DNA of 64,000 nt from positions 1 through 64,000 of the forward strand of contig NZ_JAAGMD010000073.1 of the NCBI RefSeq assembly GCF_010548465.1, written 5' to 3'. The first letter of the stretch is position 1. The number at the start of each line of letters is the position of its first letter. Of this stretch, positions 3,761 through 20,115 are shown one piece after another. Made by a program: the position numbers and the translations under genes. The notes below the pieces were generated by a model. It was not told the origin of the DNA. It did no database searches and was given only the letters and a program-made list of their open reading frames with translations. The stretch is from Streptomyces sp. SID14436 (lineage in GTDB: Bacteria > Actinomycetota > Actinomycetes > Streptomycetales > Streptomycetaceae).

Positions 3761-5185
3761 TCAGGAGGCGCAGCAGGACAGTTTGCTCACGTCCCGGGTG
3801 TAGGTCTGGGCGGCGAGCTTGAGGCCCTCGGCCATGGTCAGGTACGGGCACCACAGGTCGGCCATCTGGTGCACCGTCATCCGGTTCGCCAGCGCGTAGA
3901 CGGCGGTGGCGATCACATCACCGGCGCTCTCGGCGATGACATGGGCGCCGAGCAGCCGCCCGGTACCACGTTCGGCGACGAGTTTGATCAGGCCGCGGGT
4001 GTCGCGGTTGACCAGTGCCCGGGGTACGTACTCCAGGGGCAGGACGCGGCAGTCGCATGCCATGCCCTGCGCGATGACTTGGGCGTCGGTGAGACCGGCG
4101 GCGGCGATGGCCGGGCTGGTGAAGGTGACCCGCGGCAGGTGGTGGTAGTCCAGGGTGCGCTCGGCCCCGTCCAGGGCGTTGTCGGCGACCAGCGTGCCGT
4201 GGGCCCCGGCGACATAGACGAACTGCGGATGCCCGGTCACGTCCCCGGCCGCCCAGATCCGTTCGTTGCCGGTGCGCAGGTGCTCGTCCACGACGATCTC
4301 GCCGCGCTCCCCGGTCTTGACCCCCACCGTCTGAAGGCCGAGGCCGTCGGTGACCGGGCGGCGGCCGGTGGCGACCAGCAACTGCTCCGCCTTCCGTTCG
4401 AAGACGTCGCCCGCGCGGGCGGCGGTGAGCCTGTAGCCGCCGGTGTCGCGGCGCACGGCGGTGATGGTGACGCCGGTGTGCACGCTGATGCCCTCGCCGG
4501 TGAAGACGTCCTCGATCATCGCGGAGACCTCGGGCTCCTCGAACGGGGCGAGCCGGTCCAGCGCCTCGACGACGGTGACCTGGGTGCCGAGCCGGGCGAA
4601 GAGCTGGCCCTGCTCCAGGCCGATGGCGTTGCCACCCACCACGAGCATCGACTCGGGCAGGCGGTCGAGTTCCATGGCGGTGGTGGAGGTCAGGTAGCCT
4701 GCCTCGTCCAGTCCGTCGATGGGCGGTGCCCACGGGGCGGAGCCGGTCGCGATGACGTAGTGGGCGGCCTCGATGGTGGTGGTGCCGCCGTCGCCCAGGG
4801 CGACTTCCAGTTCGGGTCCGGGGGCGAAGCGGGCGGTGCCGGCCAGGATCGGCCAGTCGTACTCGGTGGCCAGGTCCTCGTACTTGTCCGCCCGCATCGC
4901 CTCCACCATGGCCTGCTTGCCGCTGATCAGGGCGGGGAAGTCCACCGGGCCCGCTTCGGTGCGGATACCGGGGAACGGCTGGGCGAGGGCCACATGGCGG
5001 GCCTCGGCGGCGGCCAGCAGCGCCTTGGAGGGCACGCATCCGGTGTTCACACAGGTGCCGCCGGTGGTGCCGCGCTCGACCATCACCACGCTTTTGCCCT
5101 TGTTCCGTGCGGCGATCGCGGCGGCGAACGCTGCCCCGCCCGAGCCGATGACCGCCAGATCGAACCGGCTGCGCTGCGTGCTCAC
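3761..5185 (-). CDS. merA: Mercuric reductase MerA (copy 1)
   Basis: This FAD- and NADPH-dependent cytoplasmic enzyme reduces Hg(II) to volatile Hg(0). The Rossmann motif VIGSGGAAFAAAIAA and the redox motif GTCVNTGCVPSK (Cys45 and Cys50 with this start) are intact. The NADPH fold has VVGGNAIGLEQGQL and the FAD site IWAAGDVTG. The C-terminus ends LSCCAS, the Cys pair that hands Hg to the partner active site. There is no N-terminal MerP-like domain, so the protein is short at 474 residues. GTG 5185 is preferred over 5194 because GGAGG lies 8 bases before it. It is transcribed divergently from an ArsR-type merR. Confidence 0.95.
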   Translation of the reverse strand: MSTQRSRFDLAVIGSGGAAFAAAIAARNKGKSVVMVERGTTGGTCVNTGCVPSKALLAAAEARHVALAQPFPGIRTEAGPVDFPALISGKQAMVEAMRADKYEDLATEYDWPILAGTARFAPGPELEVALGDGGTTTIEAAHYVIATGSAPWAPPIDGLDEAGYLTSTTAMELDRLPESMLVVGGNAIGLEQGQLFARLGTQVTVVEALDRLAPFEEPEVSAMIEDVFTGEGISVHTGVTITAVRRDTGGYRLTAARAGDVFERKAEQLLVATGRRPVTDGLGLQTVGVKTGERGEIVVDEHLRTGNERIWAAGDVTGHPQFVYVAGAHGTLVADNALDGAERTLDYHHLPRVTFTSPAIAAAGLTDAQVIAQGMACDCRVLPLEYVPRALVNRDTRGLIKLVAERGTGRLLGAHVIAESAGDVIATAVYALANRMTVHQMADLWCPYLTMAEGLKLAAQTYTRDVSKLSCCAS

Positions 5186-5236
5186 AGCCACCACCTCCCT
5201 TGGATGGAACGGGTACCGGCCCGCTTTCTATATGCC

Positions 5237-5282
5237 TTGCCGAATACCCGAACCCCGCCATACTATTCGAGTAGGCGAATAG
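5237..5282 (+). promoter_or_regulatory. merR promoter and operator, divergent mer unit 1
   Basis: TTGCCG (5237-5242) and TACTAT (5261-5266) with an 18-bp spacer give a promoter toward the ArsR-type merR. Overlapping its -10 is a perfect inverted repeat CTATTCG-AGTAGG-CGAATAG (5263-5282), a typical ArsR-family operator. The same arrangement recurs at 9148-9193 upstream of the second copy, which supports function. It lies between merA (minus) and merR (plus), so one site could repress both directions. Confidence 0.75.
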
Positions 5283-5305: not shown

Positions 5306-5728
5306 ATGGGCTCCGCACCTGTTCTGGTCCGCACTGAGGCCGCAGCGTCCGCCCGCCAGGCCGACGCCGGGTGTTCGCACACCGACACCGTGGCCCGGTT
5401 CTTCCGCGCGCTTGCGGACCCCACCCGGCTGAAGCTGCTGGAGTTCATCCTTCGCGGGGAGCGCACCTGTGCCGAGTGCGTCGGATATGCAGGGGTATCC
5501 CAGTCGCGGGTCTCGGTCCATCTGGCCTGTCTGACGGCCTGCGGGTATGTGACCGGCCACCGGGACGGAAGGAGGCTGCGCTACCGCGTCGGCGACCCCC
5601 GGGTGGCGGACCTGGTCGTCCTCGCCCGCGCCGTCGCCGCGGACCACGACGGCGTCCCGGACCGCTGCTCTGGTGATCGCGCCCAGCCGGGACCGACTCT
5701 CGGAAGGAATCGCCATGCCGACCTCTGA
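5306..5728 (+). CDS. merR: ArsR/SmtB-family mercury repressor MerR (copy 1)
   Basis: A 140-residue winged-helix protein: ARFFRALADPTRLKLLEFIL, then GVSQSRVSVHLACL as recognition helix, and a beta wing (GHRDGRRLRYRVGDPR). The published Streptomyces lividans mer operon repressor is likewise an ArsR-type protein called MerR, and this protein fits it. Cysteines at the helix (ERTCAECVGYAG) and a C-terminal Cys (PDRCSG) are candidates for binding Hg(II), which would release the operator. It starts at ATG 5306 after GGGAGAGGGG, and its last 14 bases overlap the next gene. Note that it is unrelated to the three true MerR-fold proteins nearby. Confidence 0.9.
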   Translation: MGSAPVLVRTEAAASARQADAGCSHTDTVARFFRALADPTRLKLLEFILRGERTCAECVGYAGVSQSRVSVHLACLTACGYVTGHRDGRRLRYRVGDPRVADLVVLARAVAADHDGVPDRCSGDRAQPGPTLGRNRHADL

Positions 5729-6038
5729 CCAGCCCCCACGCCGCGAACAGGACCGGCCCGCCACGGGCGCTGCCCCGGGCATCGGGATCGTCCTGCTGAT
5801 GATCGTCTGCTGTGCGGGTCCCGTCCTGGTCCTGTCCGGTGCCCTCGCCGGGATCGGCGCCTGGCTCGCCAATCCGTGGGTGATCGCCGCAGCCGTGGTC
5901 CTGGCCGTCGCGGCCGTCACCGTCCTCGTACGCCGCCGCGCCCGCCGCGACGACTGCTGCCCGCCCGGGGGCGCCTCCGGCAGCGCCGCAAGGCGACGCC
6001 GGGCACCACAGCAGCGAGGCGGCCCGCATGACCGCTGA
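5715..6038 (+). CDS. Small di-cysteine membrane protein, MerT/MerF-like mercury importer (copy 1)
   Basis: A 107-residue protein with two predicted membrane helices (about 23-42 and 47-72). Vicinal Cys32-Cys33 lie inside the first helix in the string MIVCCAGPVLVLSG, as in MerT/MerF transporters that pass Hg(II) inward. A second Cys pair (81-82) lies in the short basic C-terminal tail. ATG 5715 follows GGAAGGAAT and overlaps the merR gene, so the two are co-translated. Function is inferred from topology, the Cys pair and mer context; it is not a close match to classical MerT. A paralogue is at 9600-9902. Confidence 0.82.
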   Translation: MPTSDQPPRREQDRPATGAAPGIGIVLLMIVCCAGPVLVLSGALAGIGAWLANPWVIAAAVVLAVAAVTVLVRRRARRDDCCPPGGASGSAARRRRAPQQRGGPHDR

Positions 6039-6060
6039 TTCCGACCCCGAGGAGACCGTT

Positions 6061-6348
6061 ATGTATGCCCCTCCCCAGCCCTCACGCCGTCAGCTGCAAC
6101 GGTCCGGTGACCGCGGTGCCGCAGGCTTCGTCCGGCTGCTGTCGACTGTCCGCGGTGCCGGTCCGTTCCTGCTCGCGGCCGTTGTCCTGGCCGGGATCGG
6201 CGCCGTTTTGTCTATCGCGTGGGTGGTCGACGCCGCGGTCGTCCTGGCCATCGCCGCCGTCGTCACCGTGCTCGTGCGCCGCCGCGTCCACAGCGACGCC
6301 GCATCCGCGCACGGCCAGGCCGGCCGGCGCCGCAGGCGGTGCTGCTGA
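6061..6348 (+). CDS. Paralogous small membrane protein lacking the membrane Cys pair
   Basis: A 95-residue two-helix protein whose sequence follows the preceding gene closely (GPFLLAAVVLAGIGAVL... AVVTVLVRRR). The transmembrane Cys-Cys is replaced by Arg31-Gly32, so it probably cannot carry Hg(II) in the same way. A Cys pair remains as the last two residues. ATG 6061 has GAGGAG seven bases upstream. ATG 6028, which would overlap the previous stop, is an alternative. It may be a decaying duplicate or a partner subunit. Confidence 0.65.
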   Translation: MYAPPQPSRRQLQRSGDRGAAGFVRLLSTVRGAGPFLLAAVVLAGIGAVLSIAWVVDAAVVLAIAAVVTVLVRRRVHSDAASAHGQAGRRRRRCC

Positions 6349-7278: not shown

Positions 7279-7653
7279 TTGTCCACACCGGCCCGGCAGC
7301 GCATAGTGCTGAGCCGGGCCGCTCGGAGACTGCTGGAAGTCACCCTTGCCGGTCTCGGTGCCCTGGCCGCCACGCTGGGCGCGGGGCTGTCGCTGGTCGG
7401 CCTCTGCTGTGGCGCTCTGGCCGCGGCGGGTGCGGGCACGGCCGCCACGGGCGCCGCCGTGCTGGGCCCCTGGCCGTGGCTGTTGCTGACGGCCGGGGCC
7501 ACGCTGATCACTGCCGCGCTGTTCGTGCGGCGTCGGCGGACGGCCCGTCGGGACTACCGCCTGCCGAAGCCCACCCCGCCCGATCACCGCGCCCATGGCG
7601 AGGGCGCTATCGGCCAGGATCTCCGCAGACAGGGCGGGCGGGACGCCGGCTGA
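7279..7653 (+). CDS. Small membrane protein with Cys pair, MerT-like
   Basis: A protein of about 124 residues with two membrane helices. The first carries GLSLVGLCCGALAAAGAG, with the vicinal cysteines typical of mercury transporters; a basic tail follows. It is closely similar to the protein at 12392-12709 (shared LGAGLS..GLCC core). There is no ATG: TTG 7279 or GTG 7306 are the possible starts, with no clear ribosome site, and the frame is closed by a stop at 7258. It lies downstream of a MerR gene and ends 3 bases before the convergent merA2 stop. Transport of Hg(II) is inferred. Confidence 0.68.
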   Translation: MSTPARQRIVLSRAARRLLEVTLAGLGALAATLGAGLSLVGLCCGALAAAGAGTAATGAAVLGPWPWLLLTAGATLITAALFVRRRRTARRDYRLPKPTPPDHRAHGEGAIGQDLRRQGGRDAG

Positions 7654-7655
7654 GT

Positions 7656-9089
7656 TCAGCCGGCGCAGCAGGAGAGCTTGGCGACGTCCGAGGTGAAGGT
7701 CTGGGCGGCCAGTTTGAGGGCTTCGGCCATGGTCAGGTAGGGGTGCCAGGTGTGGGCGAGCTGGTCGACGGTCAGTCCGGCGGTGATGGCGTAGGTCGCG
7801 GCGGTGATGATGTCGCCCGCGCCGTCGGCCAGGACGTGGGCGCCCAGCAGCTTTCCGGTGCCGCGTTCGGCTATGAGCTTGACCAGGCCGCGGGTGTCGC
7901 GGTTGGCCAGGGCGCGGGGTACGTACTCCAGCGGCAGGGTGCGGCACTGGCAGGCGATCCCGGCCTCGGCCAGCTGGGCGTCGGTCATCCCGACCGACGC
8001 GATGGCGGGGCTGGTGAAGGTGACCTTCGGCAGCGCGGTGTAGTCCAGGGTGCGCTCCGCCCCGTCCAGGGCATTGTCGGCGACCAGGGTGCCGTGGGCG
8101 GCGGCCACGTACACGAAGTCGGGGTGCCCGGTGACGTCGCCGGCCGCCCAGATGCGGGGGTTGCCGGTGCGCAGGTGCTCATCGACGACGACTTCGCCGC
8201 GCTCGCCGGTCTTCACGCCCACCCGCTCCAGGCCGAGGCCGTCGGTGACCGGGCGGCGTCCGGTGGCGATCAGCAGGTGGCTGGCGCGGATCTGCTGCTC
8301 GCCGTCGGGGCCGGTGAGGGTGGTGAGAATGCCGTCGCCGTCGCGGTGTACGGCGCTGGCCTGGGTGCGGGTGTGGACGGTGATGCCCTCCTCGCGGAAG
8401 ACGGCCTCGATGCCGGCGGAGATCTCCGGCTCTTCCTGGGAGGCCAGGCGGGAGCGGACGGCGATGGTGACGCGGCTGCCGAGGCGGGCGAAGAGCTGGG
8501 CCTGCTCCAGGCCGACGTAGCCGCCGCCGAGCACCAGCAGGTGCTCGGGGAGCTCATCCAGTTCCATGGCGGAGGTGGAGGTCAGGTAGCCGGCCTCCAC
8601 CAGTCCGTCGATGGGCGGCGCCCACGGGGCGGAGCCGGTGGCGATCACGTAGTGGGCGGCCTCGATGGTGGCGGTGCCGCCGTCGTTGAGCGCGACCTCC
8701 AGGGCGGGGCCGTCGTCGTTCGCCGTGAAGGTGGCGGTGCCGTGCACGATCTGCCAGCCGTACTCGGCGGCCAGATCGGTGTACTTCTCCGCCCGCAACT
8801 GCTCCACCAGCGTGTCCTTGCCGCCGATCAGTGCGGGGAAGTCGACCGCGGGCTCGGTGCCCTCCAGGCCGGGGAACCGGCTGGCCGCGCGGGCGCCGTG
8901 GCGGGCCTCGGCGGCGGCCAGCAGCGCCTTGGACGGCACACAGCCGACGTTCACGCAGGTGCCGCCGGTGGTGCCGCGCTCGACCATCACCACGCTCCTG
9001 CCCTTGCTGCGGGCGGCGATGGCCGCGGCGAACGCGCCACCTCCCGAACCGATGATCGCCAGGTCATAACCGGTGTGTGCCTGAAGCAC
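7656..9089 (-). CDS. merA: Mercuric reductase MerA (copy 2)
   Basis: A 477-residue second mercuric reductase, clearly homologous to the first copy but diverged. It has FAD motif IIGSGGGAFAAAIAA, redox Cys45/Cys50 in GTCVNVGCVPSK, NADPH fold VLGGGYVGLEQAQL, FAD motif IWAAGDVTG and the C-terminal Hg-relay pair Cys474-Cys475 (KLSCCAG). It has no N-terminal MerP-like domain. GTG 9089 has GGAGG seven bases upstream. It is divergent from the second ArsR-type merR. The NADPH site here is GGGYVG, whereas copy 1 has GGNAIG; both loops lie at the dinucleotide-binding turn, so the two enzymes may differ in cofactor use or stability. Confidence 0.95.
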   Translation of the reverse strand: MLQAHTGYDLAIIGSGGGAFAAAIAARSKGRSVVMVERGTTGGTCVNVGCVPSKALLAAAEARHGARAASRFPGLEGTEPAVDFPALIGGKDTLVEQLRAEKYTDLAAEYGWQIVHGTATFTANDDGPALEVALNDGGTATIEAAHYVIATGSAPWAPPIDGLVEAGYLTSTSAMELDELPEHLLVLGGGYVGLEQAQLFARLGSRVTIAVRSRLASQEEPEISAGIEAVFREEGITVHTRTQASAVHRDGDGILTTLTGPDGEQQIRASHLLIATGRRPVTDGLGLERVGVKTGERGEVVVDEHLRTGNPRIWAAGDVTGHPDFVYVAAAHGTLVADNALDGAERTLDYTALPKVTFTSPAIASVGMTDAQLAEAGIACQCRTLPLEYVPRALANRDTRGLVKLIAERGTGKLLGAHVLADGAGDIITAATYAITAGLTVDQLAHTWHPYLTMAEALKLAAQTFTSDVAKLSCCAG

Positions 9090-9147
9090 AGCACTACCTC
9101 CCTCAGTGGGGGCCGGACGCTCCCGCCGAACCCGTTTCCTATGCGGC

Positions 9148-9193
9148 TTGCCGAATGGCAGACGGCCACCATACTATGCGGACAAGCGAATAG
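9148..9193 (+). promoter_or_regulatory. merR promoter and operator, divergent mer unit 2
   Basis: TTGCCG (9148-9153) and TACTAT (9172-9177) with an 18-bp spacer match the promoter of unit 1 exactly. The inverted repeat over the -10 is CTATGCG-GACAAG-CGAATAG (9174-9193), with one arm mismatch. The conservation between the two copies while the spacer sequence has drifted argues that these hexamers and arms are under selection. Confidence 0.75.
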
Positions 9194-9216: not shown

Positions 9217-9603
9217 ATGAAAACCCCTGCCCTTGCCGGCTCACCGGACACGGCCGCCGCGGCCGAGGTGCCGTGCATCCATCTGGACACCACAGCCCGG
9301 TTCTTCCGCGCGCTCGCGGACCCCACCCGGCTGAAGCTGCTGGAGTTCATCCAGCGCGGCGAGCGCACCTCGGCCGAATGCGTCGAGCACGCCGGGATCT
9401 CGCAGCCGAGGGTGTCGGTGCACCTGTCCTGTCTCGTGGACTGCGGCTACGTCACCGCCCGCCGGGACGGCAAGAAACTGCGCTACTCCGTCGGCGACCC
9501 CCGCGTCGCGGATCTGATCATGCTGGCCCGGTCCCTGGCCGCCGACAACGCCGCCGCCCTGGACTGCTGCCCCCGCATCCCCGCAAAGGGGGACCCGCGA
9601 TGA
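9217..9603 (+). CDS. merR: ArsR/SmtB-family mercury repressor MerR (copy 2)
   Basis: A 128-residue winged-helix repressor nearly matching copy 1 through the DNA-binding core (TTARFFRALADPTRLKLLEF, GISQPRVSVHLSCLVDCGYV). In the metal region TCAEC of copy 1 has become TSAEC, leaving one fewer cysteine, while a Cys-Cys pair near the end (ALDCCPR) is gained. Metal affinity may differ from copy 1. ATG 9217 is preceded by GGAAAGG, and the stop overlaps the next start as ATGA. Confidence 0.9.
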   Translation: MKTPALAGSPDTAAAAEVPCIHLDTTARFFRALADPTRLKLLEFIQRGERTSAECVEHAGISQPRVSVHLSCLVDCGYVTARRDGKKLRYSVGDPRVADLIMLARSLAADNAAALDCCPRIPAKGDPR

Positions 9604-9902
9604 CGCGCCCGCCCACCCAGCCCGGCGAGCGCCGAGGCGGTCTGCTCGGCACCCTCGGAATGGTCGGCGTCGTGCTGCTGCCCGTCCTGTGCTGCGCCGG
9701 GCCGGTACTGCTGGCCGGCGGCGCTTTGGCCGGACTCGGCGGGGCCCTGGTCAGTCCCTGGCTGCTGGCCCCGGCCGCGGTCCTGCTGGCCGGCGGTCTC
9801 CTCTGGTGGCTGCGCCGCCGCCCCACCGGCAGCGGCGATTCCTGCTGCCCGCTGCCCGCCCGCACCGACCAGCACGACCGCGACCTGCTCCGCAAGCCCT
9901 GA
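9600..9902 (+). CDS. Small di-cysteine membrane protein, MerT/MerF-like mercury importer (copy 2)
   Basis: A 100-residue protein with two membrane helices (about 14-40 and 43-70). Cys31-Cys32 lie within the first (LPVLCCAGPVLLAGG) and Cys82-Cys83 in the cytoplasmic-type basic tail. It is the counterpart of 5715-6038, translationally coupled to merR copy 2 through ATGA. The two Cys pairs suggest a relay: capture in the membrane, then transfer to the tail and on to MerA. That mechanism is inferred from MerT/MerF. Confidence 0.82.
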   Translation: MTRPPTQPGERRGGLLGTLGMVGVVLLPVLCCAGPVLLAGGALAGLGGALVSPWLLAPAAVLLAGGLLWWLRRRPTGSGDSCCPLPARTDQHDRDLLRKP

Positions 9903-10006
9903 GCAGGTCGGCGACCGGCACCGCCACGACACGCGTATCCGCCCGCCCGCTCCGCCGCCGACCGGGACAAACTCCCGTCCCGCCTCCGAGGAAGGCCCGC
10001 ACCACC

Positions 10007-10567
10007 ATGACCTCCCCGTCCCCCACCGCCCGCCGCACCCGCCTGCGCCGCCGCACAGTCCTGGCCCTCGCCGCCGCCACCGCCGCCGTACTCACCCTGT
10101 CCGCCTGCGGCACCGCCACCACCGGCTCCACGGCCAAGACTGACACCGTCAGCGGCAGTTCCGCCGCAGCCAAGACGGACACCGTCACCCTCCTCGACGA
10201 CACCACGCTGGCGGTGCCCGGAAAGAAGCCCGCCGCTCTGTTCTTCTTCTCCGTGGGCTGCGGCGAGTGCGCCGGAGGTGCCAAGTCGCTGGACAAGGCT
10301 GCCAAGGCGTTCGGGGACAAGGCCACCTTCCTCGCGGTGGACATGGACCCGAGCGAGTCGAAGACGACCATCATGCAGTTCCTCGACTACATCAAGGCGC
10401 CCGGACTGGCCACCACCGTCGACAAGGGCGCCGCCCTGTCCCTGCGCTACCAGGTCTCGGCCCTGTCCACGCTGATCGTCGTCGACCCCCAGGGCAAGGT
10501 CACCTACCGGGCCACCGACCCGTCGGCCGACCAGATCCAGGCCGCCTTGAAGAAGGCGGGCGCGTGA
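10007..10567 (+). CDS. Thioredoxin-like (TlpA-type) lipoprotein
   Basis: A 186-residue exported lipoprotein: basic N-terminus, hydrophobic stretch and lipobox LSAC with Cys34 as the lipidated residue, then a Ser/Thr/Ala-rich linker. A thioredoxin fold follows with active site Cys85-Gly-Glu-Cys88 (SVGCGECAGG) and the cis-loop region ALSTLIVVD. It would sit on the outer face of the membrane and exchange thiols with the CcdA protein encoded next; the genes share the bases TGATG. ATG 10007 follows GAGGAAGG. Its presence in a mer operon suggests keeping Hg-binding cysteines reduced or capturing Hg outside the cell. That is inference. Confidence 0.85.
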   Translation: MTSPSPTARRTRLRRRTVLALAAATAAVLTLSACGTATTGSTAKTDTVSGSSAAAKTDTVTLLDDTTLAVPGKKPAALFFFSVGCGECAGGAKSLDKAAKAFGDKATFLAVDMDPSESKTTIMQFLDYIKAPGLATTVDKGAALSLRYQVSALSTLIVVDPQGKVTYRATDPSADQIQAALKKAGA

Positions 10568-11523
10568 TGAACGGCCTGCTCACCCTCGCCTTCGCCGCCG
10601 GGATGCTCGCCCCGGTCAACCCATGCGGCTTCGCCCTGCTGCCCGCCTGGATCACCTCCGCCCTCGGCGAAAACGACACCTCCCCGCTGCCGGTACGCCT
10701 CACCCGCGCCCTGCGCTCCGGCGCCGCCCTCACCCTCGGCTTCGCCGGCACCCTCGCCGCTGCCGGGCTCATCGTCAGCGCCGGGGCCCGCGCCCTGATC
10801 CGTGCCGCCCCCTGGCTCGGCCTGGCCACCGGCATCATCCTGCTGCTCCTCGGCGCCTTCATGCTCACCGGCCGCGCGCTCAGCCTGCGGCTGAACCTGC
10901 CCACCGGTACCCGCCGGTCGGCGGGCCCGCCGACCGCCCGGCGCATGGTGGTCTTCGGCGCCGGCTACGCCGCCGCGTCCCTGTCCTGCACCTTCGGTGT
11001 GCTGCTCGCCGTCATCGCCCAGGCCCAGGCCACCGCCAGCTTCGCCGGGCTCCTCGCGGTCTTCGCCGCCTACGCCGCCGGATCGGCCGCCGTGCTGCTG
11101 CTCGTCGCGGTCACCACCGCCGCCGCAGGCGCCGCCCTCACCCGCAAGATCACCGCCTTGGCCCGGCACGGCACCCGCATCACCGCCGCCGTCCTCGTCC
11201 TCACCGGCGCCTACCTGGCCTGGTACTGGTACCCCGCCGCCACCGGCGGCCCCGCCACCGCCGCCCCCGGCGGCGGCCTCGCCGCCTGGTCCGCCACCGC
11301 GACCGCCTGGATCCAGGGCCACACCACCACCATCGCCGTCACCGCTCTCGTGGTCGTCCTCGCCGTCACCGCCGCCGCCCTGCGCCACCGCAGGCGGCAG
11401 GCCGCCCGCAACGCCGCTCCCACCGGGGCAGCCCCCTCTGCCGAGGCGGACTGCTGTGCGCCCCAGCCCGTCCCCACCCCGGCCGCCGCCCCGGACCGCG
11501 ACAATCCCGGCCACTGCTGCTGA
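10567..11523 (+). CDS. CcdA/DsbD-type thiol-electron transmembrane transporter
   Basis: A 318-residue integral membrane protein with six or more hydrophobic segments. The two conserved CcdA cysteines are seen in PVNPCGFALLPAW (Cys20) and ASLSCTFGVLL (Cys141). CcdA carries reducing equivalents from cytoplasmic thioredoxin to extracytoplasmic thioredoxin-like proteins, here most likely the lipoprotein encoded immediately upstream. Beyond the usual domain there is an extra helix and a tail with Cys-Cys pairs (ADCCAPQ and the terminal HCC). Such a metal-binding-like tail is unusual for CcdA and fits the mercury setting. Confidence 0.87.
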   Translation: MNGLLTLAFAAGMLAPVNPCGFALLPAWITSALGENDTSPLPVRLTRALRSGAALTLGFAGTLAAAGLIVSAGARALIRAAPWLGLATGIILLLLGAFMLTGRALSLRLNLPTGTRRSAGPPTARRMVVFGAGYAAASLSCTFGVLLAVIAQAQATASFAGLLAVFAAYAAGSAAVLLLVAVTTAAAGAALTRKITALARHGTRITAAVLVLTGAYLAWYWYPAATGGPATAAPGGGLAAWSATATAWIQGHTTTIAVTALVVVLAVTAAALRHRRRQAARNAAPTGAAPSAEADCCAPQPVPTPAAAPDRDNPGHCC

Positions 11524-11594
11524 CCACGCCCCATCTCTGCGGCCGGGAAACGGATAAAGCCCCGGCCGCAGGCATGCAGAACGGACACTGCTCC

Positions 11595-12230
11595 ATGACC
11601 ATGCCAGCAGCCCGCGAGACGGCCACCCCAGCCGTGCACAAGAGCAGGCACGCGACGTTCGGCGCCAGCCGGACGCTCGCCCTCCTACTGATCCTGGGCG
11701 GCTCCCTCGGCCTGCTCGCCTCGGCCGTGCTCACGCACGACAAGATGGAACTGCTCGCCAACCCGGACTACGTCTCGGCGTGCAGCATCAACCCGGTGCT
11801 GTCCTGCAACAACATCATGAAGAGCTGGCAGGCCAGCACCTTCGGCTTCCCCAACCCCTTCATCGGCTGGGCCGCCTTCCCCGCCGTCATCGCCATCGGC
11901 GCGGGACTGCTGGCTGGCGCCCGCTACCGGCGCTGGCACTGGCTGGGCCTGCAGGCCGGCACCGTCTTCGGCATCGGCCTCATCACCTGGCTGCAGTACT
12001 CCTCGCTGTATGCCATCGGCGCACTGTGCCTGTGGTGCACCCTCGTATGGGCCGTGACGATCCTCATCTTCTGGTACACCACCGTGCACAACATCCAGCA
12101 CGGGCTCATCCCCGCCCCCGACCGGGTACGCTGCACTGTCGCCGAGTTCCACTGGGCCGTACCCGTCCTGTGGATCGGCATCATCGCGCTGCTGATCCTG
12201 ACCAGGTGGGGCAGCGCCCTGTGGGCCTGA
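11595..12230 (+). CDS. Vitamin K epoxide reductase (VKOR) family protein
   Basis: A 211-residue polytopic membrane protein. It shows the VKOR signature: the loop pair Cys63 and Cys71 (ACSINPVLSCNN) and the CXXC Cys145/Cys148 (GALCLWCTLVW) in a later helix. Bacterial VKOR homologues use quinone to reoxidise DsbA-like proteins. Having an oxidising VKOR beside a reducing CcdA/thioredoxin pair implies a redox cycle outside the membrane. ATG 11595 is taken as start; ATG 11574 in the same frame is possible, and neither has a strong ribosome site. Confidence 0.9.
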   Translation: MTMPAARETATPAVHKSRHATFGASRTLALLLILGGSLGLLASAVLTHDKMELLANPDYVSACSINPVLSCNNIMKSWQASTFGFPNPFIGWAAFPAVIAIGAGLLAGARYRRWHWLGLQAGTVFGIGLITWLQYSSLYAIGALCLWCTLVWAVTILIFWYTTVHNIQHGLIPAPDRVRCTVAEFHWAVPVLWIGIIALLILTRWGSALWA

Positions 12231-12391
12231 CCCCCAGCCCCCGAAGCCCCGGCCGCCAACCCCCGTGGGAGCCGGGAGGGCGGTCGGCTGCCGCATCCCC
12301 CCGAGCGGCAGTCGGCCACACCCTCACCCCTGCCCGCCCCGGCCCCTGGAGTCCAGCCGATGCACACAGCGCCCCCGCCCGGCTACGCCGG

Positions 12392-12709
12392 GTGCTCGGC
12401 CACCTGCTGACGGCCACGCTCGCCGCGCTCGGGGCCCTCGGCACGGCCCTCGGCGCCGGGCTGTCCATGATCGGCCTGTGCTGCACCGGCCCAGCCCTGG
12501 CCACCGCCGCCGCAGGCGGTGCAGCCACCGGGGCCGCCGCCTCCGTCACCCCTGTGACCTGGCCCTTCTGGACAGCCGGAGCCGTCCTGCTCACCGCCGC
12601 CGCATTGTGGCACCGCCGCCACCGCACCTCCACCTGCCGCAGCCGCCGCATGCCGCCCGGATCACCCGAACAGCCCCGCCCCTCCGGCCCCACCGGCCCG
12701 CACGGCTGA
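12392..12709 (+). CDS. Small membrane protein with Cys pair, MerT-like, uncertain start
   Basis: A protein of about 105 residues with two membrane helices and the core LGAGLSMIGLCCTGPALA, strongly like the protein at 7279-7653. Only GTG 12392 offers an in-frame start, without a ribosome site. ATG 12360 has GGAG upstream but is out of frame. Loss of one CA from CACACA right after it would give MHSAPARLRRVLG in this frame, matching the N-terminus of the paralogue (STPARQR). The gene may thus carry a 2-base slip. Mercury transport is inferred from the Cys pair and position. Confidence 0.62.
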   Translation: MLGHLLTATLAALGALGTALGAGLSMIGLCCTGPALATAAAGGAATGAAASVTPVTWPFWTAGAVLLTAAALWHRRHRTSTCRSRRMPPGSPEQPRPSGPTGPHG

Positions 12710-12781
12710 GGATCTTCACACGCCCCAGTACGCACCGTCCGCACCGGGCTGGACAGGCAGAGACACAGAAGGAGTCCTCTC

Positions 12782-14158
12782 ATGGCCGAGCGGTACGACA
12801 CCCTGGTGATCGGCGGCGGCATGGCCGGCCTGCCCCTGGCCCTGCGCGCAGCAAGACACGGCCGGGTCGCCTTCGTGGAGAAGGAGAAACTCGGCGGCAC
12901 CTGCCTCAACCGCGGCTGCATCCCCACCAAGACGATGATCGCCTCCGCAGCGGTGGCCCACCAGGTGCGCCGGGCCGCCGAGTTCGGCGTCCACGTCCCC
13001 GCCCCCAGCGTGGACCTGGCCGCCGTGGTCGCGCGCAAGAACGCGATCGTGGAGACGATCCGCTCCGGCTCATACAAGACGGTCGGCAAGGCCGACCAGA
13101 TCGACTTCTATCCCGCCGAGGGACGCTTCACCGCGCCCCGGCGGCTGCGCGTGGACCACACCGAGATCGAGGCCGACAAGATCTTCCTGGTCACCGGCCT
13201 GCGCACCACCATCCCCGCCATCGACGGCCTGGAGACCACCCCGTACTACACCTCCCGCACCCTGCTCGACCTCACCGACCTGCCCGAGCACCTGATCGTG
13301 GTGGGCGGCGGCTACATCGGCTGCGAGTTCGCCCAGATGTTCGCCCGCTTCGGCTCCCGCGTGACGCTCATCCAGCGCGCCGAGCGACTGCTGCCCGCCG
13401 AGGACCCCGACATCTCCGCTGCCGTCACCGACGGCTTCACCGCCGACGGCATCACCGTCCTGACCGGCACCACCTGCACCGCCGTCGACGGCCGCCCCGG
13501 AAACATCCGGGCCGGCTGCCAGGGCAGCGAGACCGGCGAGATCAACGGCAGCCACCTCCTCATCGCCACCGGCCGCACCCCCAACACCGACATCCTCGGC
13601 CTCGAACACCTCGGGCTGGCCCCCGACGAGCGCGGCTTCCTGCCCGTCGACGACCTGCTGCGCACCGCGGCCGAGGACGTGTGGGCGCTCGGCGACATCC
13701 GCGGCGGGCCGATGTTCACCCACACCGCCCGCGACGACGCCGACATCGCCTACCGCACCACCTACCGCGGCCAGAACCGCTCCACCAACGGGCGGATCGT
13801 GCCGCACGCGGTGTTCACCGACCCCGAGGTCGGCTCCGTCGGACTGACCGAACCCGCCGCCCGCGCCGCCGGACACCAGGTCCTCATCGGCCGCCAGGAC
13901 TTCACCGGCGTCGTCAAGGCCCGCGCCATCGGCAACACCCGCGGCCTGATCAAATTCGTCGTCGACGCCTCAACCGACAAGATCTTGGGCTGCCACATCG
14001 CCGGCCCCGACGGCGGGAACCTCGTCCACGAGGCCGTCATCGCCATGACCTGCGGCGCCACCTACAGCGACATCGCCCGCGCCATCCACATCCACCCCAC
14101 CCTCGCCGAGGGCGTCAACACCGCCGCCGGCGGCGTCCACCGGGAGATCGGCACCTGA
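12782..14158 (+). CDS. MerA-like pyridine nucleotide-disulfide oxidoreductase
   Basis: A 458-residue flavoprotein with FAD motif LVIGGGMAGLPLALRAA, redox Cys41/Cys46 (GTCLNRGCIPTK), NAD(P)H motif VVGGGYIGCEFAQMF, FAD motif VWALGDIRGG and the C-terminal dimer-interface His region (IHIHPTLAEG). The C-terminus ends HREIGT and lacks the Cys pair of MerA, so Hg(II) may not be its direct substrate. It could reduce a dithiol carrier, a low-molecular-weight disulfide or an unknown thiol. It has a strong ribosome site (GAAGGAG) before ATG 12782. It ends the redox run that begins at merR copy 2. Confidence 0.88.
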   Translation: MAERYDTLVIGGGMAGLPLALRAARHGRVAFVEKEKLGGTCLNRGCIPTKTMIASAAVAHQVRRAAEFGVHVPAPSVDLAAVVARKNAIVETIRSGSYKTVGKADQIDFYPAEGRFTAPRRLRVDHTEIEADKIFLVTGLRTTIPAIDGLETTPYYTSRTLLDLTDLPEHLIVVGGGYIGCEFAQMFARFGSRVTLIQRAERLLPAEDPDISAAVTDGFTADGITVLTGTTCTAVDGRPGNIRAGCQGSETGEINGSHLLIATGRTPNTDILGLEHLGLAPDERGFLPVDDLLRTAAEDVWALGDIRGGPMFTHTARDDADIAYRTTYRGQNRSTNGRIVPHAVFTDPEVGSVGLTEPAARAAGHQVLIGRQDFTGVVKARAIGNTRGLIKFVVDASTDKILGCHIAGPDGGNLVHEAVIAMTCGATYSDIARAIHIHPTLAEGVNTAAGGVHREIGT

Positions 14159-14200: not shown

Positions 14201-14698
14201 TCAACTGCAAGACCCGTACGGCGCCGGACCACCGCGGGCGGCAGGCAGCCGACGGACGTTGCCGACGGCGGCCGCCTGTTCCCGCAGCCGCTCGATCTCC
14301 ATCCGCTGGGCGGCGATCTGCGACAGAGCCCGCTCCCTGAAGTCAGTGAGCCCATCGATCTGCGCGTCACGCGCGGCGAGGCGCTCCTTCAGCCCGGAGA
14401 CCTGTTCTTTGAGGCGCTCGATCTGTGCAGCCCGCGGGTCTGGAATCACGCCCGTTTCCCGAAGCTCGGTCAACCGGCGCTCGAACTCCTCCGCCAGGTG
14501 TTGATAGGGACCTGGCCGCGGCGAGCCGTCGCGGTTCTTCTTGGGATAGAAGCCGGTGCGTGCGACCCCGGCTTGGGCCGCGAGGGTCTTGATGTCGCAC
14601 TTGCTGCCCGCGGGAACGTCACCGGCAAGGAGCCGCTCCATGACGTGCCGAATGGCCGCCTCGTTGTCCCGACGGGTCTCGTCGCTGATGCGGGCCAC
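14201..14698 (-). CDS. TnpC-like accessory transposition protein (DUF6262)
   Basis: A 165-residue protein with an N-terminal winged-helix-like part (KTLAAQAGVARTGFYPKKN) and a C-terminal coiled coil (IERLKEQVSGLKERLAARDA). This is the arrangement of TnpC proteins from Tn554-type elements, which assist the recombinases and affect orientation and frequency of integration. GTG 14698 is used because it opens at the end of the upstream recombinase gene. The preceding ATG 14703 reads another frame. It is the last gene of the four-gene transposition operon. Confidence 0.8.
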   Translation of the reverse strand: MARISDETRRDNEAAIRHVMERLLAGDVPAGSKCDIKTLAAQAGVARTGFYPKKNRDGSPRPGPYQHLAEEFERRLTELRETGVIPDPRAAQIERLKEQVSGLKERLAARDAQIDGLTDFRERALSQIAAQRMEIERLREQAAAVGNVRRLPAARGGPAPYGSCS

Positions 14699-14699
14699 G

Positions 14700-16880
14700 T
14701 CATGCCCCCGTTCCGGAGCGGGCGTCGATCTCGGCCAGCACCCGTTCATCGCGGGCGAGTTCCGTACCCAGCCGGGCCTTCTCCGTCCGCTGCGCGCGTC
14801 CGATGGTGGCGATGAAGACCTTCTTGCTCTCGGCACTGGCCGCCCATACCGGGCGATGCCCGGCATGGTGGGTGGCCTGGGGGCACCGCGCCGAATCGCA
14901 CATGCCGATCAAGGGCTCTGTCGCCCCGCGGGCGTGGGCCCCTGCGAGCTTGAGGCACAGCGCCTTGGACGGATCGAGGAACCAGCAGTAGTTCGCCGGC
15001 CCCAGGTGCAGGGCCTTGGCCCGCTTGGCGAGCAGGTTCGTCATCTCCTGGTCGCTGCGCTTGATGTTCGGCGCCCCGGAGGAATCCAGCTGTTCGTCGA
15101 CGAACGCGAAGAAGTCCAGGAGGTCACTGGCGCCAGGCCCCGCAGGCCGGATACCGTTCTGGTAGTCGTGGAAAGCGTCGAGGGCGACGCGCAACTTGTG
15201 CTCCCGCTCCTCTTGGCCGAACTCGGCCATCAGCACCGACTGGGCCCCACCGGGGCGGTCCGCATAGCCCTCCGTGGTGACCACGGAAATGTGCTTGAGA
15301 TGGATCTTGGCGGCCAGCAGACCACCGGGCCGGTGCGCCATTTCCACCGCGAGGGTTCTCCGTAGCATCCGCAGACTGACCGGCTCCTCGGGGATCGGCG
15401 CCAGCCCAAGGCGACGGCCGTCTGGGCCATTGACCCAGGTCAGGAACCATTCGTACGGGGTGAAGAAGGAGAGCGACTTGAACAGGTGACCGGTGTTCTT
15501 CACCGGGTCGGCGAGCGAGGCGGCCACGCCGGCGGTGTCGTACGCCTGCTTGATGGTCACCCACTGATCGTGTTCACCACCCAGCTTCCGGCCCTTGATG
15601 ACCTTGCCCTTCAGGCGGTAGCGGAGGCGGCCCTCGCCGAGCTGCTCGGGAGGCAGGCGGCAGTCGTGGGTCAGCTCGGCCAGTTCGCTCTTCCGCATCC
15701 CCGTCAGTGCGGCGAGCGCGATGACGCACGCTGTGCGGGCCCGGGAGAGCTGCAGTCGGGCCTCGGTGGTGTTCATCGGCAGGGTCCAGGGGACACTGCC
15801 CCGTCCGTCCGCGCGTTCGACCAGGGCGGCCGTCCGGCCCCAGCGTTTGGCCAGGCCGACTTCCCGGACGGCCTTCTCCAGGTGGCCGCGCAGGGTGGGC
15901 AGCCACCTGGAGTGGAAGGCATGCCGTCCGGTCTCGTGGGCGAGGGAGATCAGATTCACCCGCAGCAGCGGATCGTCCGGATCCCAGCCGTCCGCCAGCC
16001 GCTGGGACACGACGTGATCGAGGGCGACATCCAACGGATCGCCCTCTTGTATGTGCCGGTCGATGGCCTGCGCGACCTCGACCCTCCAGTCCGGACGCTC
16101 TCGGTTGTTGCGGCCCGGCCGGTTCGGCACCATCTCCTGCAACTGTTGCTGCAGCTCCATGACGTGCGGCGCCAGCACCTCCACCACGTACAGGGCCGCC
16201 GCGACGAGCGGTTGGAAGACGTCGTTGCTCAGCGGCGGTGTCGTGTTGCCCGTCCGACGGACCATCCCGGCGACGGAGTACGCCGTGCGTCGCCCCCACG
16301 GACGGAAGGCCGACACGTAGCCGTCTGCTGAGAACAATTCCTTGTAGTAGCCCAGCTCCTGGATGACCGCCACTACGTCCATGCGGTAGCCGGGGCTGCT
16401 GTCGCGGATCACGACGCCGTGCTTGTCCCGTACCTTCTTGCGAAGCTCCAGGTAGGCAGCACAGTGCTGCTGGGTGACCTCCCCGAGACTGTCCACGCCC
16501 TGTTCGGTGAGCCAGTTCAGCCAGCCGGTCAGCACGGTCAGCCGCCCGTGCACCGTGGCAATCAGCACCGGCGTTCGATAGGCGTGAGCAAGTTCCCGCA
16601 CAGCGCGGTGGTCCGGTGCAAGCCGGGCGAAGACGAACTCCTTCGCGAGTTCCCTCCACTGGGGATTGAGGATCTCGACGAAGGACAAGATCCGCGCGTA
16701 CCGCGCAAGGTACCGCGGCAGCCCGATGACACCAGTGAAGTCCCAGATTGCGTCGTCGAAGTGAGGATGCGGGCCCGCACCGTGAACCGGCAGACCGGCC
16801 GCAGCGCACACGTCTTCACCTCGAAAGACGGAACGCGAAAAGGCAGCCGCGAGGCCCGCGGGCCGGTGCAGGGTGGTCAT
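14700..16880 (-). CDS. Tn554 TnpB-like tyrosine recombinase, 726 aa
   Basis: A large tyrosine recombinase. Catalytic box I is Arg396 in LTGMRKSEL, box II is SLRMLRRTLAVEMAH with Arg507, and the tail box LKHISVVTTEGYA holds His530 and the nucleophile candidate Tyr539. Before the catalytic domain is a long N-terminal SAM-like/DNA-binding region, and after it a Cys/His segment (GMCDSARCPQATHH) suggestive of a zinc site. ATG 16880 overlaps the upstream stop as ATGA, so translation is coupled. Size and gene order fit TnpB of Tn554-like transposons. Confidence 0.88.
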   Translation of the reverse strand: MTTLHRPAGLAAAFSRSVFRGEDVCAAAGLPVHGAGPHPHFDDAIWDFTGVIGLPRYLARYARILSFVEILNPQWRELAKEFVFARLAPDHRAVRELAHAYRTPVLIATVHGRLTVLTGWLNWLTEQGVDSLGEVTQQHCAAYLELRKKVRDKHGVVIRDSSPGYRMDVVAVIQELGYYKELFSADGYVSAFRPWGRRTAYSVAGMVRRTGNTTPPLSNDVFQPLVAAALYVVEVLAPHVMELQQQLQEMVPNRPGRNNRERPDWRVEVAQAIDRHIQEGDPLDVALDHVVSQRLADGWDPDDPLLRVNLISLAHETGRHAFHSRWLPTLRGHLEKAVREVGLAKRWGRTAALVERADGRGSVPWTLPMNTTEARLQLSRARTACVIALAALTGMRKSELAELTHDCRLPPEQLGEGRLRYRLKGKVIKGRKLGGEHDQWVTIKQAYDTAGVAASLADPVKNTGHLFKSLSFFTPYEWFLTWVNGPDGRRLGLAPIPEEPVSLRMLRRTLAVEMAHRPGGLLAAKIHLKHISVVTTEGYADRPGGAQSVLMAEFGQEEREHKLRVALDAFHDYQNGIRPAGPGASDLLDFFAFVDEQLDSSGAPNIKRSDQEMTNLLAKRAKALHLGPANYCWFLDPSKALCLKLAGAHARGATEPLIGMCDSARCPQATHHAGHRPVWAASAESKKVFIATIGRAQRTEKARLGTELARDERVLAEIDARSGTGA

Positions 16881-18655
16881 ACGGTGTGCTCCTCAGGTCG
16901 CAGGGGAAGCTCGACATCGGAGTCGGTGACCTCGGCAGCGGCTGCCCGCAGCGCGTGCTCGGAGAAGTACCGGTCGGGGGTCAGGATCTCGTCGAGACGG
17001 TGGGCGTACGGGCCGAAGACGGGGATGAACTCGGCGGTGGTCATCTGCTCCCACTGACGGGAGAAGAACGCCCGTAGTCGCAGCAGGTTCGGCAGATGGC
17101 GGGGGGCGAACAAGGCCAGCGGACACAGCAGGCACACCCACGGACGTGCCGGACAGGGCTTGCCCTTCGGCCCGTGAAGTCCCGACATCTGATCTCCACA
17201 TGCCGCAGTGAATACGTCGCGCTGCCCGGACAGGAGCTGCGCCAAGGCGTTGTCATCCAGGCCGAGCCGCTTCATGTGCTCGGGATAGTTCTCCACCAGG
17301 TCGGCCATTTCAGCGGTGGCCAGCACCAAGGGCGGCAGCGCCCGGCGAACGAGGTCCTCCTGCGCCTGGACGATGATGTCTTCCACCGCCTCACGCTGAG
17401 ACGGCGTCGTGTTCGTCAGATAGTGATCACCCTCGATGCCGGGGGACCGGTTCGGATCCAGCGTGGACCGGCGGCTGCCGCGCCAGTGCGACCGGTCTTG
17501 CAGCGCGTCGTGAGTAGTGCGGATGCGGTGCAGGTGAAGGGCCAGGGGGAGACCGTCGTCACCGGTCATCTGCGCGGGGCGCCCGTCCTCGTCGACGGCC
17601 TGGCGCCGCTCCACCCAGGCGCATATGGACAGGCGCGTGGCCGGCTTGGCCAGCCATCGCTCTCCCGCCCATGTGCCACTCGGCGTGAAACGCACCCAGA
17701 GCTCGGGGCGCAGTTCCTCGGGCGCGAAGCGGCGGGCCACCGCAGAGTGATCGAGCCACTGCTCCAGCAGGCGAGTGGCCTGACGTGACAGAGCAAGGCT
17801 CTCCGCCGCTGTGCGGCCCTTGACGTAGCTGAGGAGGATCTTCTCGTCACCCGCCCACTCGATGTCGTCGAGTCCCAGGTCCGCGATCCCGTCCGGCACG
17901 ACCCCGGTGTAGGCGCCGAACAGCAGCTGATAGGCGATGATCACGTCCAGGGTCGGGATCAGCGGATCCAGCACCGCGCGAAGACCGACCCCGTATCTCT
18001 GCCGGAAGGGGAACGAGCCGCGGTCTGCCATCTCGTTGACGAGCGGGTCGGGCCCGTGGTGAAGCACCAGCCAGTGATGGGCAGTGCGCTCACGGAGCGC
18101 AGCCCCTGGCCCGTCAGCTGACGAAGCCTGCTCACGGGCCGCGCAGAACGCGCGGAACGCGCCATCGACCTCGTCGCGGCAGGTACGGATGAGCCGGGCC
18201 CATTCGGCCTCGCTGTACGGCTGGTGCGAGCCGTACCGCTCGCCCGTGTTGAACAGCCGGCCATCGACGAACGCGCGCACGTCCGGCGCCAGAATCTGAT
18301 CCTGGTCGTCGGCGCAACGCAACATCGCCCGCAGCGCGCTCTCCTGGGAGGATCGCACCCCTTGCCGCCAGTACCGGGCGAGGAGCGCGCGCGTCAGGTC
18401 GGAGGCCCCGCCGGAGAACCCGAACTCGACCAGCCAGTCGGTGAAGCCGCGGACGGCCGTGAGGTAGAGGTCGATCCCTCCCGCGCTGTCGACCTGCCCG
18501 TGCGGATGGACAAGATCCGTAACGCCTTCCAGCAGAGTGCGTGCCAGCCCCGGGAGCTCCACTCGTCGCCGCACACGCAGGGGACGGCGGTACTCCGACC
18601 CGTCGCTGAAGACGCAGTGCACACCCAGCGGGTCAAGGGTGACGGTGGCCGGCAT
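16877..18655 (-). CDS. Middle recombinase-like protein of the transposition operon, 592 aa
   Basis: The protein has the overall plan of a tyrosine recombinase. The first catalytic region reads GAYTGVVPDGIADL, without the Arg expected after TG. A HRIRTTH motif resembles box II, and a Tyr-containing segment GDHYLTNTTPSQ follows. A Cys cluster occurs near the C-terminus (CPARPWVCLLCPLALF). It is therefore probably a structural or non-catalytic subunit acting with the two flanking recombinases. Its ATG shares the bases TGATG with the upstream gene end, and its stop overlaps the downstream start. Confidence 0.78.
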   Translation of the reverse strand: MPATVTLDPLGVHCVFSDGSEYRRPLRVRRRVELPGLARTLLEGVTDLVHPHGQVDSAGGIDLYLTAVRGFTDWLVEFGFSGGASDLTRALLARYWRQGVRSSQESALRAMLRCADDQDQILAPDVRAFVDGRLFNTGERYGSHQPYSEAEWARLIRTCRDEVDGAFRAFCAAREQASSADGPGAALRERTAHHWLVLHHGPDPLVNEMADRGSFPFRQRYGVGLRAVLDPLIPTLDVIIAYQLLFGAYTGVVPDGIADLGLDDIEWAGDEKILLSYVKGRTAAESLALSRQATRLLEQWLDHSAVARRFAPEELRPELWVRFTPSGTWAGERWLAKPATRLSICAWVERRQAVDEDGRPAQMTGDDGLPLALHLHRIRTTHDALQDRSHWRGSRRSTLDPNRSPGIEGDHYLTNTTPSQREAVEDIIVQAQEDLVRRALPPLVLATAEMADLVENYPEHMKRLGLDDNALAQLLSGQRDVFTAACGDQMSGLHGPKGKPCPARPWVCLLCPLALFAPRHLPNLLRLRAFFSRQWEQMTTAEFIPVFGPYAHRLDEILTPDRYFSEHALRAAAAEVTDSDVELPLRPEEHTV

Positions 18656-20115
18656 CAGACCACCGCCAGTTCGTCGTCGAACTCAGTCTCGAGCTCCAGC
18701 TCGGCCTCCTCGTCCAGCAGCCCGTACTCCTTGCCGACCCGCCGATACAGGGAGGTGAACAGGCGGAGCACGTCCAGGCGGTGGAGGTACGCTTCCGTGG
18801 TCAGTGAACTGGTATGTCCGAGCAGATCGCGCAGAATCAGAAGCGGCTCTTGGGTCCGCAGGTAGTGCGCCAGGGCGGCATCGTCGTCGGTGTCGCGGAC
18901 CTGTCGTGCAGCCTGCTCGTACCAGCCACGCATCAGCCGCGCCATGGTCGCCATGGCCATGGTGTGACGTAGCCGGTGCGGATTGACGTGCGGGAAGCGC
19001 GGCTCGTAACGCTCGCGGATGCGGTCAGAGGTCCTGGCGAAAACCGTGGCCCATCCGGTGAATGGACGTCCCTGGCCCCACACCGAGAGCAGCATCGAAC
19101 CGCCCTCCGGGGCGACCAGACGCCGCCGTTCGTCAGGCCCGAGCGAACTCCACTGCACACGGACCCCGTTGACGCGTCCGCCCCGCTGATCGGCGTCCGT
19201 CACGAACAGCGGCTCTCCCCAGCGGGCCGGCGGACGCCACGACGATCCGAACGTTGCCGCTGCCCGGTCGAGCGAGATGTAGGAGTGCAGCTCGACCAGC
19301 GAGTCGTAGTCGATCCACGACTCGCGGTACTTGCTTCCCTTGGTGATTCCGGAAGGGACTGGGAACGACACTGGCACCGCGGTCCGTCGCGAGGGAAGCA
19401 GGGGCACCTCGCAGACCAGCAGGTATGTGTACTCCTGGCTGCGTAGTCCGCTGGAGACGATCATTCGGCCGACCGCCGAGTTCCGGGCCAACTCCCGTCC
19501 TCGGTAGCGCAGATCCCGCTCCCCGTCGGGGCTCAGGCCCGCCAACCCCTTCAGGAACATGTCCGTGAAGTCGTCGTCGAGATACTTGATCGTCACATGA
19601 GGCTTGGCTTGGCGCCGCCGTGACTGGTTGACCCGTCCGCGACGGACTTGCCCCTTGAAGGCCCAGACCGCCTGCCGGTACGTGAACGGCTCGGAGTCGG
19701 CGTACTCCTCATCCTTCGCCCACTTGTAGAACCCCGCCAGAATCCCCATGTTCTGGTTCCACGTGGACGCCTCGAAGCGATGCTTGATGGGGCCCTGGGC
19801 GCGATAGACGGAGTACGCGCCCAACGCCGCCTTCAGACGACGCCGCGTGTCGAACAGGGCGACTCCGTGCTCGGATATGAACTCCAGCCACTCACGCACC
19901 GTACGCACGTAGTAGGGCCACGAATTCGGCGATGGGCATCCATTCGCTGGCAGCTCGCAGGCCCAGCAGTTGATCACGGTTGTGGGACGGACACCGTTGC
20001 TGTCCTCGAAGAGAAGGTCGTCGTCGAACAGCAACGGCATCCCCTCCGGGATCGCCGGCCTGAACGCAAGTCCCCAGGACTCCCAGCCTGCTGATGAGTA
20101 CGTCGATTGGTGCAT
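18655..20115 (-). CDS. Tn554 TnpA-like tyrosine recombinase, 486 aa
   Basis: First gene of the transposition operon. A complete catalytic set is visible: Arg225 in SSGLRSQEYTYL, His380 and Arg383 in PHRLRHTMA, His434 in LLGHTSSLTTEAYL, and nucleophile Tyr443. An N-terminal SAM-like core-binding domain precedes it (about 65-160). It would cut and join element ends through a phosphotyrosine link, probably together with the next two proteins. ATG 20115 lies about 88 bases from the neighbouring chromosomal gene, so this end of the element is very close to the gene start. Confidence 0.9.
   Translation of the reverse strand: MHQSTYSSAGWESWGLAFRPAIPEGMPLLFDDDLLFEDSNGVRPTTVINCWACELPANGCPSPNSWPYYVRTVREWLEFISEHGVALFDTRRRLKAALGAYSVYRAQGPIKHRFEASTWNQNMGILAGFYKWAKDEEYADSEPFTYRQAVWAFKGQVRRGRVNQSRRRQAKPHVTIKYLDDDFTDMFLKGLAGLSPDGERDLRYRGRELARNSAVGRMIVSSGLRSQEYTYLLVCEVPLLPSRRTAVPVSFPVPSGITKGSKYRESWIDYDSLVELHSYISLDRAAATFGSSWRPPARWGEPLFVTDADQRGGRVNGVRVQWSSLGPDERRRLVAPEGGSMLLSVWGQGRPFTGWATVFARTSDRIRERYEPRFPHVNPHRLRHTMAMATMARLMRGWYEQAARQVRDTDDDAALAHYLRTQEPLLILRDLLGHTSSLTTEAYLHRLDVLRLFTSLYRRVGKEYGLLDEEAELELETEFDDELAVV

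Follow-up and report, generated by a model that had tools for sequence, protein, structure and literature searches.

A thioredoxin-CcdA thiol module in actinobacterial mercury resistance operons and its extended form in Streptomyces sp. SID14436

We analysed a window of 64,000 nucleotides from Streptomyces sp. SID14436 (contig NZ_JAAGMD010000073.1, positions 1 to 64,000, forward strand) and, within it, a block of seven genes at 9217-14158 that stands divergent from a true mercuric reductase gene, merA2. Following the repressor, the block encodes a small membrane protein (MEMB1), a thioredoxin-fold lipoprotein (Trx), a CcdA-like membrane protein (CcdA), a VKOR, a second small membrane protein (MEMB2) and a flavoenzyme (FADX); vicinal cysteine pairs (CC) and cysteines within transmembrane helices (TM) recur among these products, as follows.

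7656-9089, - strand: merA2, true mercuric reductase, divergent from the block (TIGR02053 648.5 bits, cut-off 454.45; C-terminus LSCCAG)
9217-9603, + strand: arsR-type merR, repressor (HTH_metalloreg 79.1 bits, cut-off 55; also PF01022)
9600-9902, + strand: MEMB1, small two-TM protein with CC within TM1 and CC after TM2
10007-10567, + strand: Trx, thioredoxin-fold lipoprotein (lipobox LSAC, active site CGEC, Ser at the cis-Pro position)
10567-11523, + strand: CcdA-like membrane protein (TM Cys in NPCGF and SLSCT; tail DCC...HCC)
11595-12230, + strand: VKOR (PF07884 139.7 bits, cut-off 27.5; four canonical Cys)
12392-12709, + strand: MEMB2, second small CC membrane protein, GTG start likely (homologue in S. 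longwoodensis, paralogue at 7318-7653)
12782-14158, + strand: FADX, FAD/NAD(P) disulfide-reductase-family enzyme (GGTCLNRGCIPTK, HIHPTLAE, no CC tail)

Open reading frames (ORFs), profile matches and a plasmid alignment agree that all seven genes are present and intact on the + strand, in the order given by a first-pass annotation made from the sequence alone. The tight spacing which that annotation described holds for two overlapping pairs, arsR/MEMB1 and Trx/CcdA, and not for the remaining intergenic gaps (about 104, 71, 161 and 72 bp). A Streptomyces longwoodensis plasmid aligns to the entire stretch (86% identity, 99% of length), and the ratio of nonsynonymous to synonymous substitution rates (dN/dS) lies between 0.25 and 0.55 in each of the seven genes, indicating purifying selection; all seven are therefore maintained genes and not chance reading frames.

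The gap between merA2 and arsR holds two copies of a putative ArsR/MerR operator, an inverted repeat that also occurs upstream at a second merA/arsR promoter.

9174-9193: putative operator CTATNCG-N6-CGNATAG, in the merA2/arsR gap
9139-9158: second copy with one mismatch, 35 bp upstream of the first (CTATGCGGCTTGCCGAATGG)
5263-5282: exact match at the merA1/arsR1 promoter

Exactly two exact sites exist in the 6.84-Mb genome, both in these merA/arsR promoters, against none for a control pattern. The motif is also exact in the merA/arsR gap of most arsR-type loci examined, frequently doubled with the same 35-bp spacing (as in L003, L008 and L013-L016); it is absent from this gap in L005, L009 and L062. 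Together with the gene order, the putative operator would place the gene run under a mercury (Hg)-type ArsR repressor, and a search for terminator-like sites on the + strand within the block found none; expression of the block from a single Hg-controlled promoter is therefore likely.

Association with mercury resistance was assessed from both directions. A scan keyed on CcdA, in which mer genes were not used and each species was represented by one genome, yielded 366 relatives, of which the best 80 were kept as loci. A merA match adjoins in 76 of these, the few without a full merA being short contigs or loci with merB/arsR only, and MEMB1, Trx and CcdA follow one another in that order in nearly all. 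Represented among the loci are Streptomyces, Actinomadura, Rhodococcus, Mycobacterium and relatives, Nocardia, Microbacterium, Brevibacterium, Kocuria, Nocardioides, Corynebacterium and others. Two arrangements of the trio are seen, one divergent (merA / arsR-MEMB1-Trx-CcdA) and one in a single direction (merR / merA-(merB)-MEMB1-Trx-CcdA), and the presence of the trio under two unrelated regulators, of ArsR and MerR type, argues for function. The gene neighbourhood is thus not one found mostly away from mer, the outcome that the first-pass annotation had named as fatal to its proposal of a mer-associated extracytoplasmic thiol module; that proposal stands, and the link of this core to mercury is not accidental. 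In the reverse direction, 36 merA loci, sampled without bias from further genomes of this class, contained Trx-CcdA in 11 cases (12 if one broken copy is counted); the set is thus frequent in actinobacterial mer operons without being obligatory.

The further suggestion that known mer operons lack such a set did not survive, given this frequency of about one third and a 2025 review (PMC12195606) that already gives actinobacterial proteins with Trx and CcdA domains the names 'mercury transporter' or 'mercury resistance operon ORF3'. In layout the block corresponds to the mer locus of S. lividans 1326 and of the CHR28 giant linear plasmids (divergent merAB / merRTP; PMC5312570, PMC3466566): common to the window and those loci are a merA-merB unit reading away from a merR of ArsR type and transport genes behind the latter, and in the window merA and merR have a shared putative operator. 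Two mer surveys (PMC8261052, PMC3466566) leave CcdA unmentioned, and thioredoxin appears in one of them, in the reference list only. The core is a known and already sequenced, though apparently little-studied, part of actinobacterial mer operons; the S. lividans transport-gene products are probably these same proteins. What is new relative to it is the VKOR-MEMB2-FADX extension and a CC tail on CcdA, neither of which we found described in the literature surveyed, which did not include the original descriptions of the S. lividans and CHR28 loci.

All Trx relatives have the CXXC, and at least 90% of rows also have the lipobox Cys. AlphaFold, run on input alignments from which rows derived from plasmid records were left out, gives a confident thioredoxin fold (predicted local distance difference test, pLDDT, about 97 over residues 61-186) whose top Foldseek matches are ResA, Etrx1/2 and DsbF. 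Fold and CXXC are those of the thioredoxin/ResA family, from which Trx departs at the cis-Pro position: read by alignment in all distinct mer Trx copies covering the site, this residue is Ser or Thr (one Asp) and never Pro. According to the title of Su et al. 2007, as cited in PMC6210436, cis-Pro precludes metal binding at active-site thiols, and the abstract of PMC13269488 reports that DsbA turnover needs it, loss having abolished turnover.

CcdA is so assigned because of its match to the CcdA nuclear magnetic resonance (NMR) structure 5vkv and the database names of its relatives. Among solved structures this one ranks first in sequence as well as in fold comparison, though both matches are weak (sequence E 0.089; Foldseek E 0.065, probability 0.96); the structure prediction has moderate confidence (mean pLDDT 75), the window protein passes the cut-off of no Pfam or NCBIfam model, and profile comparison of CcdA with Trx gave, as expected, no link. 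The TM4 motif reads SLSCT in the CcdA of the block and TPCIGP in 5vkv. TM1 and TM4 each hold a Cys that is invariant in 55 of 55 distinct mer-linked CcdA. The extra Cys pairs that the first-pass annotation saw in the C-terminal tail (DCC...HCC) are real, and a tail CC is specific to mer-linked copies (45/56 distinct copies, against 0/25 non-mer paralogues); we found no description of this feature in the literature surveyed.

The paralogous pair that supplies this comparison (L095-L119) lies on Streptomyces chromosomes away from mer: 12 loci were examined, and none had a mer operon within some 8 kb; near one of them (L136) is a weak MerA-family flavoenzyme match of 293 bits. It comprises the same two genes with the same TM1 motif (NPCGFALLPA) and also lacks cis-Pro, and it differs from the mer pair in having a PWCPKC-type active site where mer Trx has CGEC, and no CC tail. 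Loss of cis-Pro as a mer-specific sign of metal binding was accordingly rejected.

MEMB1 resembles MerF/MerT in anatomy, the alignment placing one CC in TM1 and a second after TM2; the CC is present in 52 of 52 distinct relatives, and the second in 45. Some relatives match Mer families weakly in Pfam (best MerE 1.2e-4, MerC 3.2e-3, MerT 4.4e-3), and the window protein matches none of MerT, MerF, MerE and MerC at gathering score. Formal membership of MerF/MerT was rejected, since no cut-off was reached and no solved MerF was matched.

The 3' part of the block has a much narrower distribution. Ordinary VKOR homologues occur in 387 of 393 Streptomyces genomes and the mer-type copy in 3; VKOR was found adjoining mer solely in a few Streptomyces loci (L003, L010, L011, L012; genomes G110 and G339) and in 0 of the 36 sampled merA loci. 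VKOR was therefore rejected as a general mer partner of Trx-CcdA, and VKOR with the second CC membrane protein is an extension confined to a few Streptomyces. The pairing of a reducing CcdA with an oxidising VKOR in one operon, on which the first-pass annotation mainly built and from which it proposed a redox cycle, is a feature of this small subgroup alone; because nearly all Trx-CcdA mer operons are without VKOR, the core must work without it. The VKOR has the four canonical Cys of actinobacterial VKOR-DsbA oxidative folding systems and differs from them in its restriction to few Streptomyces mer loci and in an operon that contains no DsbA gene. In the bearing subgroup it may serve host disulfide formation rather than Trx.

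FADX was first described as a MerA-like flavoenzyme without the C-terminal CC pair. The tail is indeed absent, but the protein is not merely a MerA that has lost it: it scores 393.7 against TIGR02053 (below the cut-off of 454.45), carries in HIHPTLAE the disulfide-reductase His-Glu motif HPxxxE, and falls among lpdA-like enzymes (97/96) and not within MerA in a tree that is small and has long branches. Nor does it qualify as a formal lipoamide dehydrogenase, scoring 405.9, just below the 408.8 cut-off. FADX-bearing mer loci extend to Rhodococcus, Mycobacterium, Nocardia and Hoyosella, while a relative in Deinococcus sits away from mer. In the haloarchaeon Halorarius an lpdA-like enzyme 50% identical to FADX lies directly 3' of merA (L146 4407-7359), a case by which FADX-type enzymes appear to recur with merA across domains. 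Another flavoenzyme, FADY (GGECAYWACIPSK; L003 17040-18401), is a recurrent neighbour that replaces FADX or stands beside it in L003, L008, L005, L016 and L062.

From the gene content and order, conservation, operator motif, Cys conservation and folds we infer a scheme of Hg(II) binding, electron flow and hand-over in which the block would serve as the transport and thiol arm of an S. lividans-type mer operon, a reading to which we give about an even chance. Streptomyces have no outer membrane; the site of capture, which had been called the outer membrane face, is properly the extracytoplasmic face of a single membrane. There the Trx CGEC dithiol would bind Hg(II), as MerP does in Gram-negative bacteria. 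CcdA would relay electrons from cytosolic thioredoxin so as to keep this dithiol reduced, and/or itself take Hg(II) through its intramembrane Cys pair; the metal would then be handed to cytosolic CC pairs, in the tails of CcdA and MEMB1, and on to the CC tail of MerA for reduction. MEMB1 would be a MerF/MerT-like carrier. VKOR, MEMB2 and FADX would be later additions, VKOR most likely renewing disulfide formation in exported proteins disturbed by Hg(II) and FADX reducing a cytosolic disulfide.

The transport-and-thiol scheme is supported by the adjacency of MEMB1-Trx-CcdA to merA/merB in the CcdA-keyed loci; the essentially invariant Trx CXXC, CcdA TM Cys and MEMB1 CC; the mer-specific CcdA tail CC and the confinement of the putative operator to mer promoters; the weak MerE/MerC/MerT matches of MEMB1 relatives; and the lack in Trx of a cis-Pro that, going by a cited title, elsewhere precludes metal binding. 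It has a partial precedent in the Gram-negative MerP-MerT/MerF-MerA path, with which it shares an outside thiol pair, a membrane CC protein with a second CC and a MerA CC tail, and from which it differs in that Trx has a thioredoxin rather than MerP fold, CcdA has no counterpart and MEMB1 falls below the Mer Pfam cut-offs. Several observations temper it. The cis-Pro argument, which draws on published work with other thioredoxins, is weakened because the non-mer pair has the same change, which may merely be a family trait; the tail CC is absent from 11 of 56 mer CcdA copies; about two thirds of sampled actinobacterial merA loci are without Trx-CcdA; and many of the 80 loci are near-copies on mobile elements, not independent, reducing to 56 distinct CcdA. 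A stronger version, in which mer CcdA has been turned into, or combined with, an Hg(II) conduit (cis-Pro-less Trx dithiol to intramembrane Cys pair to CC tail to MerA, with VKOR as the opposite, oxidising arm in the Streptomyces variant), is more doubtful, and we offer it tentatively.

Trx-CcdA (with VKOR) could instead carry no Hg(II) and serve purely to reduce and re-form disulfides of Hg-damaged exported proteins, much as pneumococcal Etrx/CcdA does in oxidative stress. Both redox Cys pairs are intact, the proteins nearest the Trx model are known for thiol-disulfide exchange, and Etrx lipoproteins are described in the abstract of PMC3914529 as serving extracellular oxidative stress resistance. 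CcdA-ResA/CcsX, which acts in cytochrome c maturation, and pneumococcal CcdA-Etrx likewise pair a membrane electron conduit bearing a TM Cys pair with an extracytoplasmic thioredoxin-fold lipoprotein bearing CXXC; the mer block differs from both in having no cytochrome genes nearby, no cis-Pro and a CC tail. That mer-specific tail, the constant company of merA/merB and of a MEMB1 with CC pairs, and a residue change of the kind that abolished turnover in DsbA, as the PMC13269488 abstract has it, count against repair without metal transfer, which we hold to be less likely than the capture scheme.

Less probable still is a role in which the block would give the cell an Hg-induced second set of those vicinal-dithiol enzymes that are poisoned by Hg(II) (extracytoplasmic thioredoxin, CcdA, VKOR and an Lpd/glutathione-reductase-like flavoenzyme). 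Relatives of the added redox enzymes, themselves vicinal-dithiol proteins, do occur elsewhere in Streptomyces, as the near-universal VKOR, the non-mer Trx-CcdA pair of some strains and several flavoenzymes in this genome illustrate; yet the mer copies are old separate lineages (CGEC against PWCPKC, and the CC tail) and not recent host duplicates, and it is Trx-CcdA, not VKOR, that recurs with mer across many families. Mere carriage by mobile mer elements without any role in mercury resistance, to which the Tn554-type recombinase-like ORFs beside the block, the integrases near the S. longwoodensis copy and the many near-copies might point, is highly improbable, given that mer operons of two unrelated architectures hold this trio, that the putative operator is shared and that all genes are under purifying selection.

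For a route by which Hg(II) would reach MerA without MerP, the block offers concrete candidate parts: the dithiol of a lipoprotein, a Cys pair within the membrane and a CC tail peculiar to mer copies. Should CcdA prove to carry metal in addition to electrons, the CcdA/DsbD family would have a wider role.

Two mer half-loci lie in the window, the studied block with merA2 forming one and merB/MerR/merA1 opposite arsR1 and a MEMB1 paralogue the other. The features of the latter, with the MEMB2 paralogue, are as follows.

1932-2579, - strand: merB (protein ends in CC, PESCC), first mer half-locus of the window
2685-3128, - strand: MerR-family regulator, first mer half-locus
3761-5194, - strand: merA1, true MerA (TIGR02053 602 bits, cut-off 454), opposite arsR1
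about 5306-5728, + strand: arsR1, first mer half-locus
5715-6038: MEMB1 paralogue, after arsR1 in the first mer half-locus
7318-7653: MEMB2 paralogue

A further MEMB1-like protein at 6028-6348 has lost the TM1 CC but has CC at its C-terminus, and seems to be a decaying or altered copy. Directly 3' of the mer block, 14201-20115 holds three large - strand ORFs and a small one in a TnpA/B/C layout of Tn554 type; no Pfam match at 0.001 was obtained for these ORFs, which are called recombinase-like by layout alone. Annotated site-specific recombinases/integrases also lie near the S. longwoodensis copy of the block.

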